Shown here in pieces: positions 8,917 through 36,940 of a stretch of DNA of 64,000 nucleotides. Within the stretch, counting starts at the first letter, position 1; each line of letters begins with the position of its first letter. Where the stretch lies: positions 35,363 through 99,362 of IMG/VR virus record IMGVR_UViG_3300032249_000925, one strand, 5' to 3'. Under the pieces are notes generated by a model. The model saw only the letters and a list, made by a program, of their open reading frames with translations. It had not been told where the DNA came from and did no database searches. The DNA is from a virus. Position numbers and translations under genes: made by a program.

Positions 8917-9008
8917 AGAGAGTTGGCTGAGCGGCCGAAGGCAGCGGTTTGCTAAACCGTCGTATGCAGCGATGTGTACCGTGGGTTCGAATCCCACACT
9001 CTCTGCCA
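8917..9008 (+). tRNA. tRNA-Ser (GCU anticodon)
   Basis: Acceptor stem AGAGAGT (8917-8923) pairs with ACTCTCT (8998-9004), then G73 and an encoded CCA (9006-9008). The anticodon loop TTTGCTAAA gives GCT, the long variable arm is class II, and the T arm has GGTTCGAATCC. It would read AGC/AGU serine codons. Confidence 0.95.
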
Positions 9009-13439: not shown

Positions 13440-13468
13440 TTGAAATTTGCTAATGATTAGGGTATAAT
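13440..13468 (+). promoter_or_regulatory. Sigma70-type promoter
   Basis: TTGAAA (13440-13445), 17 bases, TATAAT (13463-13468). It drives the 71-aa gene and is the only promoter visible upstream of the tmRNA. Confidence 0.85.
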
Positions 13469-13503: not shown

Positions 13504-13719
13504 ATGCAAAAACCAAACCGCTTTGATTTTGAGCAACAAATGATGGATTGCTGGGGTGTAGTAGATGACATTAAAACCATCTACTATCTCCAAGACTTGC
13601 GAGATAGTACAGAAGACGAAATGCAGAATTTACTGCTAGGTTTGTTTACAATGTATCAGGTCAAGTTTGAAATTTTGCAAAAAATGTTTGAGGACTTGGT
13701 TCACAGCAAACAGTTGTAA
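13504..13719 (+). CDS. Conserved small phage protein, 71 aa
   Basis: FDFEQQMMDCWGVVDDIKTIYY and DEMQNLLLGLFTMYQVKFE are motifs I associate with a widespread small phage protein of unknown role. All-helical. It lies directly upstream of the tmRNA and may share its transcript. Confidence 0.75.
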   Translation: MQKPNRFDFEQQMMDCWGVVDDIKTIYYLQDLRDSTEDEMQNLLLGLFTMYQVKFEILQKMFEDLVHSKQL

Positions 13720-13726
13720 ACGGGTA

Positions 13727-13790
13727 GCTACTTGGCAATACTGTCAAGTAGCACCATACCAAAGCCTAGTTTATCTGGGCTTTGGTATGG
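13727..13790 (+). other. Two tandem perfect hairpins before the tmRNA
   Basis: GCTACTTG (13727-13734) pairs with CAAGTAGC (13745-13752); immediately after, a 13-bp perfect stem pairs 13754-13766 with 13778-13790. No T tract follows the second, so they are not ordinary terminators. They may form the 5' part of the tmRNA precursor, a processing site, or protect the RNA end. Confidence 0.6.
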
Positions 13791-14058
13791 TTGTATGAAA
13801 CAAGCCGAAAGGCGCGCTGGACGTGGGTTCGACTCCCACCTGGTCCACCAAAAGCACATATAGTTGTCCTAGATGAAAGAAACCTCTGAGGGCTCTAGCG
13901 GGGATTATTGTGTGCTTCTGATGGGCCAGTCATGGTTTCGACAGTGTGATAAGTATGCAAGTGGACAACTCGGTAGGCGATCTCCGCAAAAGAAGCAAAC
14001 TATATAAATGCCAACGATGAGGTATTTGCTCTAGCCGCTTAAGCTAGTGCCGAGGTAT
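13791..14058 (+). ncRNA. ssrA: Circularly permuted two-piece tmRNA
   Basis: The 3' acceptor half comes first: T arm GTGGG-TTCGACT-CCCAC (13823-13839), acceptor strand CTGGTCC (13840-13846), then ACCA ending at 13850. A 72-base intervening segment follows, then the 5' half starts with GGGCCAG (13923-13929) and the tRNA-like GGTTTCGACA. The two acceptor strands pair over 7 bp, with G3-U70, the alanine identity element. The resume codon GCA at 13995 opens the tag ANYINANDEVFALAA, stop TAA at 14040. Permuted tmRNAs are known in alpha- and some betaproteobacteria and in cyanobacteria. The exact 5' end of the acceptor piece and the 3' end of the coding piece are not determined. Confidence 0.93.
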
Positions 14059-14089
14059 GCCCCCGCCTTGTAACCAAGGGGGGCTTTTT
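14059..14089 (+). terminator. Intrinsic terminator of the tmRNA
   Basis: GCCCCC (14059-14064) with the G run at 14078-14084, an inner CCTTG/CAAGG stem, and five Ts. It separates the tmRNA from clpP. Confidence 0.85.
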
Positions 14090-14103: not shown

Positions 14104-14736
14104 ATGGCTAACAAAAAACTTGATAGTGATGATTTTATGCTGGACACAGGTCTTAGCCGAGGATTTCGTAAATCTGGTTCTGCTATCTACGAGTTCTACC
14201 TAAGTGGAACTATTACAGGACCTGAAGACTATATTGAGTGGTTTAACACTATTCGTAGTGCAGGACCACAAGACGAAGTAAAAATTTATATTAACAGCAG
14301 CGGCGGCGATTTAAATTGTGCACTACAATTTATGCGTGTACTTAGTGAAACACAGGCCACTGTTATTTGTAGTGTTGAAGGCAGTTGCATGAGTGCTGCT
14401 ACAATGATCTTTTTATGTGCTGATGTATTTGAGGTTACTCCACACAGTTTATTTATGTTTCATAACTACAGCGGCGGCATTTTTGGCAAAGGCGGCGAGA
14501 TCTATGATCAAGCTGTTTTTGAACGTGAGTGGTCTAAGCAGTTTTTACAGCATATTTACAAAAATTTCTTAACCAGCAAAGAAATTGATAGTTTACTAGA
14601 AAACAAAGACTTGTGGCTACACAGCGAAGAAGTAAGTAATCGTGTAGAAAAATTGTGTGAAGCTAGAACTAAGGAACAAGAAGATGCTCGTAACGCCCTG
14701 TCAGGGGATTTGCAAGATGAATCCAACAACGAATAA
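14104..14736 (+). CDS. clpP: ClpP-like serine protease
   Basis: The 210-residue protein has the ClpP fold signatures: YINSSGGDLNCAL, the nucleophile Ser97 in GSCMSAAT, His120 in MFHNYSGG and Asp169 in NKDLWLHSEE, giving a complete Ser-His-Asp triad. ClpP forms a barrel fed by ClpX or ClpA; no ATPase is encoded nearby, so a host unfoldase would be needed. Phage ClpP-like proteins can be prohead proteases, but no capsid genes are adjacent. The position 15 bases after the tmRNA terminator suggests a link to degradation of tagged peptides (inference). Confidence 0.85.
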   Translation: MANKKLDSDDFMLDTGLSRGFRKSGSAIYEFYLSGTITGPEDYIEWFNTIRSAGPQDEVKIYINSSGGDLNCALQFMRVLSETQATVICSVEGSCMSAATMIFLCADVFEVTPHSLFMFHNYSGGIFGKGGEIYDQAVFEREWSKQFLQHIYKNFLTSKEIDSLLENKDLWLHSEEVSNRVEKLCEARTKEQEDARNALSGDLQDESNNE

Positions 14737-16043: not shown

Positions 16044-16120
<77 letters not shown>

Positions 16121-16124
16121 GAAA

Positions 16125-16200
16125 CTGCCCATAGCTCAGTGGATAGAGCAACAGCCTTCTAAGCTGTTGGTCGAAGGTTCGATTCCTTCTGGGCAGGCCA
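16125..16200 (+). tRNA. tRNA-Arg (UCU anticodon)
   Basis: Acceptor CTGCCCA with TGGGCAG, anticodon loop CTTCTAA (TCT), T arm GGTTCGATTCC, encoded GCCA end. It would read AGA/AGG, codons often rare in bacterial hosts and frequent in AT-rich phage genes. Confidence 0.95.
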
Positions 16201-16206
16201 AACAAT

Positions 16207-16281
16207 TCCTTAGTAGCTCAGCGGTAGAGCAGCAGACTGTTAATCTGTTGGTCCGTGGTTCGATCCCACGCTGGGGAGCCA
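16207..16281 (+). tRNA. tRNA-Asn (GUU anticodon)
   Basis: Acceptor TCCTTAG with CTGGGGA (two G-T pairs), anticodon loop CTGTTAA (GTT), T arm GGTTCGATCCC, GCCA end. Six bases separate it from tRNA-Arg. Confidence 0.94.
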
Positions 16282-16288
16282 AATTTAT

Positions 16289-16362
16289 GCCGGTGTAGTA
16301 TAATGGCAGTGCGGCGGTCTCCAAAACCGCTAGTGGTGGTTCGATTCCATCCACCGGTGCCA
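16289..16362 (+). tRNA. tRNA-Trp (CCA anticodon)
   Basis: Acceptor GCCGGTG with CACCGGT, anticodon loop CTCCAAA, discriminator G73 as expected for Trp, encoded CCA. Last of the four-tRNA cluster. Confidence 0.92.
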
Positions 16363-34978: not shown

Positions 34979-36940
34979 ATGGTTAGCACAAGAGCACAAG
35001 TAATTACACGTCGTACATATAATCGTCCTACTAGTGACGACGGAAAACAATTTGAAACATGGGAAGAAACAGTTGCCCGTGTAATTGATCATCAAGCATG
35101 GCTATGGGAACGTGCAGTTAATCGTGAATTAAATGATCAAGAATATGCAGAACTTTATGACTTAGAACAGCTAATGTTAGATCGCAAAGTATTAATGAGC
35201 GGTCGCACGCTTTGGCTTGGCGGAACTAAAGTAGCTAAAACACGAGAAGCAAGTCAGTTTAATTGCAGCTTTACTCATGTAGAAACTGTATATGATGTAG
35301 TAGATGTGCTATGGTTATTGCTACAAGGTTGCGGTGTAGGATTTAAACCTATTGTAGGTACTCTTAATGGATTTTCAAATCCAATTAAAAATATCAAAAC
35401 AATTCGTAGTCAGCGCACTGAAAAAGGCGGCAATGAATACAATACAGAAACTTGGGATGCAACAACTAAAACTTGGACACTGCAAATTGGTGACAGTGCA
35501 GAAGCTTGGGCTAAAAGTATTGGTAAGCTATTAGCAGGCAAATATCCAGCAGAAACACTAGTTTTAGATTTTTCGCAGTTGCGTCCAGCAGGAGAAAGGT
35601 TAAAAGGTTATGGTTGGATTTCTTCAGGCGATACTGCAATTAGTGCTGCATATACTAGCATTGCCAATATTCTTAATGGTAGGGCTGACAGTCTACTTAC
35701 TAGGATGGATATTCTGGACATTGTTAATCATCTGGGCACTATTCTTAGCAGCCGCCGAAGTGCTGAAATCGCTCTTTTCGACTATGGTCAGCCTGAGTGG
35801 GAAGAGTTTGCAGTAGCTAAAAAAGACTGGTGGCTACACAACAATGAACATCGTACTCAAAGTAATAATAGCCTAGTGTTTAAAGAAAAACCACTGCGCG
35901 AAGACTTAGAAAAGATTTTTCACCTAATGCAAGAAGCAGGCGGTAGTGAGCCAGGTTTTATTAATGAAGTAGAAGCTCTTAGACGAGCACCTTGGTTTAA
36001 AGGCGCTAATCCTTGTGTAGAAATTTTACTGGGCAATAAAAGTTTTTGCAACTTAACAGAAACTGACTTAGCTAAATTTCGTGGCGACAATGCAGGACTA
36101 CACGCTGCTATTAGATTAGCTGCTAGAGCCAACTATCGTCAAACTTGTGTTGACTTACAAGATGGTATCTTACAAGAATCTTGGCATTTAAACAACTACT
36201 TTTTACGATTGTGCGGTGTAGGTTTAACAGGCATTGCAATGCGTCCAGATATGGGCAGTTACGATTACGAATACTTAAAGCGCACAGCAACAGCTGCTGC
36301 TGTAGGTATGGCACAAGAACTAGGTTTACCAGCTCCAAAAAATGTAACTTGTATTAAGCCTAGTGGTACACTAAGCAAAATTATGGATACTACTGAAGGA
36401 GTGCACAAGCCACTAGGCAAGTACATTTTTAACAATGTACAGTTTAGTAAACACGATCCAGTAGTAGACAAACTGCGTGAAGCAAACTATCATGTTATTA
36501 ATCATCCAGTAGACGATAGCGGCGTGTTAGTAACTTTTCCAGTATGTTGGGATGGTGTAGTGTTTGATAAAGTTGATAGTAAAGAAATTAACTTAGAAAG
36601 TGCTGTTACGCAATTAGAACGATATAAATTGCTACAAACTAGCTGGAATCAACAAAATACTAGTGTAACTATTAGCTATGATCCTAGTGAAATTAGTGAT
36701 ATTATTGATTGGTTACTAGATAACTGGGATTGTTATGTAGGTGTTAGTTTTATTTACAGAACTGATCCTACTAAAACAGCAAAAGATCTAGGCTACCTAT
36801 ATCTTCCACAAGAAGTAGTAGATGAACGTACTTACAGAGACTATATAGCACAACTTAAACCAGTTACGCTAGATAATGCTAATAGTTTTGATGAAATTAT
36901 AGATCAAGAGTGTGCAACCGGCGCATGTCCAATTAGGTAA
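34979..36940 (+). CDS. nrdJ: Class II (adenosylcobalamin-dependent) ribonucleotide reductase
   Basis: A single-chain RNR of 653 residues. Cys96 in FNCSF and Cys357 in SFCNL form the redox pair, Cys346 in ANPCVEI is the thiyl radical site with Glu348, and Cys645/Cys650 in CATGACPIR are the C-terminal shuttle pair. No radical-generating small subunit or activase is adjacent, and the CPIR end resembles the monomeric B12-dependent enzymes. The residue usually Gly in NPCGE is Val here. It needs host or scavenged cobalamin. AAGGA precedes the ATG. Confidence 0.9.
   Translation: MVSTRAQVITRRTYNRPTSDDGKQFETWEETVARVIDHQAWLWERAVNRELNDQEYAELYDLEQLMLDRKVLMSGRTLWLGGTKVAKTREASQFNCSFTHVETVYDVVDVLWLLLQGCGVGFKPIVGTLNGFSNPIKNIKTIRSQRTEKGGNEYNTETWDATTKTWTLQIGDSAEAWAKSIGKLLAGKYPAETLVLDFSQLRPAGERLKGYGWISSGDTAISAAYTSIANILNGRADSLLTRMDILDIVNHLGTILSSRRSAEIALFDYGQPEWEEFAVAKKDWWLHNNEHRTQSNNSLVFKEKPLREDLEKIFHLMQEAGGSEPGFINEVEALRRAPWFKGANPCVEILLGNKSFCNLTETDLAKFRGDNAGLHAAIRLAARANYRQTCVDLQDGILQESWHLNNYFLRLCGVGLTGIAMRPDMGSYDYEYLKRTATAAAVGMAQELGLPAPKNVTCIKPSGTLSKIMDTTEGVHKPLGKYIFNNVQFSKHDPVVDKLREANYHVINHPVDDSGVLVTFPVCWDGVVFDKVDSKEINLESAVTQLERYKLLQTSWNQQNTSVTISYDPSEISDIIDWLLDNWDCYVGVSFIYRTDPTKTAKDLGYLYLPQEVVDERTYRDYIAQLKPVTLDNANSFDEIIDQECATGACPIR

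Follow-up and report, generated by a model that had tools for sequence, protein, structure and literature searches.

A phage-encoded, circularly permuted tmRNA gene directly upstream of a ClpP-like protease gene

The tmRNA locus described here comes from a 99,362-base virus record that represents a tailed phage; the window, meaning the whole 64,000-nucleotide stretch analysed, covers positions 35,363 to 99,362 of that record. Terminase, portal, major tail, tail-fibre J-like and fused protease/capsid genes lie on the minus strand of the record, bearing out the phage encoding proposed in an earlier note on this DNA, and genes for DnaB, a family A DNA polymerase, an SbcC-like protein and ribonucleotide reductase lie on the plus strand. 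The nearest named isolates by DNA polymerase are Vibrio phages (49%), which we take to be T5-type. The tmRNA gene is situated in the plus-strand arm, near a row of four tRNA genes at 16044–16362: Met(CAT), Arg(TCT), Asn(GTT) and Trp(CCA). The stretch with the Met tRNA shows up to 96% similarity to Acinetobacter phage tRNAs, and a Ser(GCT) tRNA gene stands apart at 8917–9008. Features of the locus, in window positions, are as follows.

13440–13468, plus strand: sigma-70-like promoter, TTGAAA-17-TATAAT, 11/12; a consensus match only, such matches being no more numerous than in shuffles
13504–13719, plus strand: small ORF of 71 aa (MQKPNRFDFEQQMMDCWGVV..., by translation), downstream of the promoter-like site and upstream of the tmRNA
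13789–13850, plus strand: acceptor (3') piece, with the long-helix 5' strand, T arm GUGGG-UUCGACU-CCCAC, acceptor 3' strand CUGGUCC, discriminator A and encoded CCA
13851–13922, plus strand: intervening segment of 72 nt, presumably excised, with low identity among relatives and an end helix
13923–14089, plus strand: coding (5') piece, with the acceptor 5' strand GGGCCAG, D-loop-like UGGUUUCGAC, tag frame and 3' hairpin
14010–14042, plus strand: tag reading frame ANDEVFALAA and UAA stop, with resume codon GCC (ARAGORN, translation)
14059–14089, plus strand: G+C-rich hairpin GCCCCC...GGGGGGC and U run, the final tmRNA helix and a likely intrinsic terminator
14104–14736, plus strand: ClpP-fold serine protease of 210 aa (phrog_1827 'ATP-dependent protease', E 2e-62), with triad Ser97, His120 and Asp169

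Rfam and ARAGORN agree that 13789–14089 (+) is a circularly permuted tmRNA gene. The RF01850 model (beta_tmRNA) matched this interval at 139.8 bits (E 1.2e-42; gathering cut-off 84), its alignment reaching 14102, and RF04321 (tmRNA_permuted) matched the same strand from 13789 at 135.2 bits (E 2.5e-26; gathering cut-off 47), while ARAGORN called a permuted 'tmRNA*' with a tag; a chance origin of the match is excluded. The earlier note had proposed this gene order, with an acceptor half upstream of the coding half and a spacer between, and had named a covariance-model search as the test of its reading. Both models scored above their gathering cut-offs, and the details it gave are borne out: the encoded ACCA ends at 13850, the spacer is exactly the 72 bases claimed, and GGGCCAG starts at 13923 and pairs over 7 bp with CUGGUCC, including G3-U70. 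The alanine identity set (G3-U70, A73 and CCA) is present in the sequence. Against this, the minimum-energy fold of the tmRNA strand was only weakly better than that of shuffles (z = -1.7, by a measure that ignores pseudoknots). The inner stem of the 14059–14089 hairpin is terminator-like in a scan for which chance alone would give about one hit of this kind, and a transcript containing the tmRNA could possibly start at the promoter-like site at 13440–13468.

The tag belongs to the usual ANDE type. The earlier note was right that it ends in ALAA but read it as 15 residues (ANYINANDEVFALAA), whereas ARAGORN gives the 10-aa ANDEVFALAA from the GCC at 14010; the ANYIN segment taken as the start of the tag sits upstream of the resume codon and outside the tag. 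The longer reading arose because the 15 nt upstream of GCC are open in the same frame by chance, and these nucleotides align with the conserved pre-resume segment of the Rfam models (consensus ...ccaUAAAuGCcAAcGAU). The frame at 14010–14042 has a resume codon, a stop and a hydrophobic ALAA-like end, and such an ending would fit recognition by host Clp proteases. These features also bear on whether the phage RNA might inhibit host trans-translation rather than help it: phage tmRNA-like RNAs can inhibit endogenous tmRNA (PMC11915505, citing earlier work), and mycobacteriophage DS6A is reported to do so to host trans-translation with a tag-less tmRNA (PMC11915505), but the RNA in the window keeps an intact, conserved tag frame with its stop codon and ALAA ending, which makes interference very unlikely here.

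Conservation follows the boundaries of the two pieces. In the window and nine relatives obtained via the downstream gene, mean identity was 95.5% in the acceptor piece and 96.2% in the coding piece (over 125 nt), against 38% in the spacer, whose length ranges from 55 to 153 nt, and 45% in the 40 nt before the gene. ANDEVFALAA is intact in close relatives (by ARAGORN for the complete ones). Across 112 loci, acceptor pairs 4–6 vary with compensation, while G3-U70 and ACCA are constant: G3-U70 occurs in 14 of 15 distinct acceptor stems, the lone stem without it being apparently a spurious second hit in L016, and ACCA is encoded in all. One relative, L012, carries a double change in the acceptor stem, A6-U67 to C6-G67. 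Its locus (L012:3700–3850) has the tag ANDEVFALAA, the compensated stem GGGCCCG/CGGGUCC and a non-canonical T arm, in which GGGGAG-GGCAGUU-CUCCCC replaces the UUCGANU loop; the D-loop-like segment is altered as well, and this tmRNA was missed by ARAGORN though its Rfam score is still 130.9 bits.

The spacer is variable in sequence but structured at its ends. Positions 13851–13860 and 13909–13918 form a helix beside the acceptor stem, separated from the 5' piece by the 4 nt UGAU. Among 88 distinct phage spacers this end helix averages 10.8 bp, compared with 6.7 bp with shuffled partners, and usually stops 4 nt before the 5' piece; within the window's clade it covaries, with compensatory changes at most positions. 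Conserved pieces, a variable spacer and a covarying end helix are together the pattern expected of a precursor that is cleaved at each acceptor end. The permuted Hodgkinia tmRNA has already been noted to have complementary spacer sequences (PMC6581868), and we therefore claim no novelty for the helix. In one relative (L014, at 1711–1850) the 153-nt spacer holds an RBS-like AAGGAG and an ORF (MDILCAHHAKDPETCKWVIENCDENTDNITVKLWLKASKEYLESLY...) extending into the 5' piece, with a 38% homologue at L185:3362–3496; a small gene appears to lie inside this spacer.

As judged from these alignments, the phage tmRNA gene is under strong purifying selection. This matters for the possibility that the gene is a passenger, that is, a copy of host ssrA acquired by the phage (e.g. 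via excision at ssrA) and functionless in infection. The ssrA gene is a frequent integration target and fragments of it are known in prophages (PMC9004378), which speaks for this reading, but the gene in the window is complete, its conservation and covariation disfavour a passenger, the same neighbouring gene is retained across relatives, and phages of many kinds carry permuted tmRNAs; we regard this explanation as very improbable.

Our data are best explained by a phage-encoded, circularly permuted beta-type ssrA that very probably works as a two-piece tmRNA on host factors; its transcription, processing, charging and use in tagging we infer from sequence. A single precursor would be transcribed from the permuted gene and kept together by the acceptor stem and the adjoining spacer helix, and the spacer would be removed by host RNase P and 3'-end nucleases, leaving two RNAs paired via the acceptor stem and the long helix. 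The product could then be charged by host alanyl-tRNA synthetase, which would recognize G3-U70, A73 and CCA, and brought by host SmpB to ribosomes that have stalled on messages broken in the course of infection. Such ribosomes would resume at the GCC at 14010, add ANDEVFALAA, stop and be recycled, and the tagged fragments would pass to host ClpXP/ClpAP-type proteases; the adjacent phage ClpP-like protease may take part in their degradation, judging from gene linkage only. Neither SmpB nor a ClpX-like unfoldase (AAA_2 family) had a match in the 99,362-base record, so host ones would be needed.

The match to a beta-type model was considered as proof of the host and rejected, since RF01850 also fits a cyanophage tmRNA (L001). 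Pattern scans of genome contigs with ANDEVFALAA and with general beta-type tags gave zero matches, and since the second pattern should match the Rfam beta consensus, these zeros are uninformative.

The less expected feature of the locus is that a ClpP-like protease gene directly follows the tmRNA, an arrangement shared by many related viruses. The product of this next gene (14104–14736) matches PF00574 at 41.6 bits (cut-off 20.2), and its triad is nearly invariant: Ser97 and His120 are present in 77/77 homologues and Asp169 in 76/77. An AlphaFold model of the 210-aa protein (mean pLDDT 76.6) has as its best PDB matches only ClpP chains (Foldseek, TM-score ~0.53–0.68). Scores fell below the NCBIfam cut-offs both for the ClpP equivalog TIGR00493 (22.3 vs 308.6) and for the ClpP-related head maturation protease NF045542 (68.8 vs a curated 120), and for this reason we use the name ClpP-like rather than ClpP. 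A prohead-protease role is unlikely given the NF045542 score and the separate protease/capsid fusion gene.

In close relatives (L004–L017), the tmRNA or a remnant of it lies directly upstream of the clpP-like gene on the same strand in 14/14 cases: nine complete genes, the L012 variant, the partial L005, and three that are truncated at a contig end and still have the tag (L009, L011 and L015). The association was also evident in 24 long contigs that had been picked only for the permuted-tmRNA pattern and proved to include a gene of the Clp family. The two genes are no more than 4 kb apart in 13 of these, compared with 2.8 expected (maximum 9 in 5000 trials), and in 10 of 21 contigs after dereplication (2.5 expected), under a random-placement null that ignores phylogeny; they share a strand in every linked contig. 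Viewed from the clpP side, permuted tmRNAs occur in 29 of the 80 loci fetched; these invariably share the strand of the clpP gene and, with few exceptions, precede it. The clpP gene comes first in three of the long contigs (G012, G017 and G032) and two of the clpP loci (L026 and L068). ARAGORN found permuted tmRNAs in 115 fetched loci, which form 64 clusters at 85% identity, and a ClpP-like neighbour is present in 9 of these clusters. The idea that ClpP is the main neighbour of phage tmRNAs was rejected, since other families recur in more clusters, although the top families listed include frames that overlap the tmRNA itself. With more frequent neighbours and a null that ignores phylogeny, we treat tmRNA–clpP as a recurrent association and not as proof of joint function. 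Full-text searches of open-licence papers gave no earlier report of this adjacency in phages.

Joint function would extend, and not replace, the two-piece tmRNA explanation: the tmRNA and protease would form a working cassette in which tagged proteins are degraded by phage ClpP-like rings acting on host ClpX/ClpA. The linkage described above, the intact protease triad and the presence of a separate head maturation protease/capsid protein in the phage are all consistent with such a cassette. However, the lack of a ClpX-like AAA+ gene in the record, a score far below the NCBIfam cut-off for true ClpP, gene order that varies outside the close clade and the modest share of clusters with a ClpP-like neighbour argue against it, and we consider it doubtful. 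Equally tentative is its general form, in which many aquatic phages would carry a cassette of permuted tmRNA and ClpP-fold protease that tags the products of stalled ribosomes and, with a host unfoldase, degrades them. The recurrent neighbourhood nevertheless hints at what phages may gain from ssrA, namely control over ribosome rescue and the disposal of tagged products, and the conservation evidence is clear that selection maintains the phage copies as working RNAs.

The window's tmRNA is a well-supported addition to the phage two-piece tmRNAs, a known but little-studied kind that is common in aquatic viruses. The earlier note had thought permuted phage copies rare, and this view does not hold: 53 two-piece forms, of which marine or aquatic samples supplied 50, were reported among 133 unique phage tmRNA structures in 2022 (PMC9004378), and our exact pattern scan, though narrow, matched at least 119 viral stretches. 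In PMC11915505, which also sets out the RF04321 model, 79 sequences of phage tmRNAs are listed. Long predicted tags, such as the 31-aa ANADTFDFSAMSFTGNTVRGAANESRFALAA, occur in the permuted tmRNAs of ten loci (L091, L113, L115, L118, L122, L124, L138, L168, L179 and L193), and tags that do not end in LAA or VAA (AKASTGEVTVSGKNIKFRTLAAKGQSLAV and similar) are predicted at L141:3964–4398, L142:2486–2931 and L169:2277–2698.

Compared with the permuted beta-type tmRNAs of Rfam (RF01850/RF04321), the window's copy has the same gene order, tRNA-like domain, G3-U70 pair and ANDExxALAA-type tag but is phage-encoded, and its post-tag end fits RF01850 less well, a hairpin and U run replacing the terminal hairpin of the model. 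Methylophilales phage Melnitz and other aquatic phages with two-piece tmRNAs likewise carry a permuted tmRNA in a tailed phage. The Melnitz ssrA is alpha-type, has a glutamine riboswitch and lies upstream of a transcription coactivator gene (PMC9004378), whereas the window's gene is beta-type and upstream of a ClpP-like gene, and the window has no Rfam riboswitch match. Synechococcus phage BUCT-ZZ01 (ON615601) and Stenotrophomonas phage Marzo (MZ326868) resemble the window in having a permuted tmRNA (ARAGORN) near tRNA genes, but their tags differ (ANDETFSMALAA and VAANDDSYTVRIAA, respectively) and neither has an annotated Clp protease gene within 4 kb of the tmRNA. The BUCT-ZZ01 tmRNA (L001:3980–4398; ON615601.1) is unannotated in the deposited record, where it overlaps hypothetical-protein calls. 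Finally, the phrog_1827 ClpP-like proteins of T5-type, Vibrio and other phages match the window's protease over nearly its whole length and share its triad, with only ~29–37% identity to those of the named isolates listed; what sets the window's gene apart from these is that it adjoins a tmRNA.
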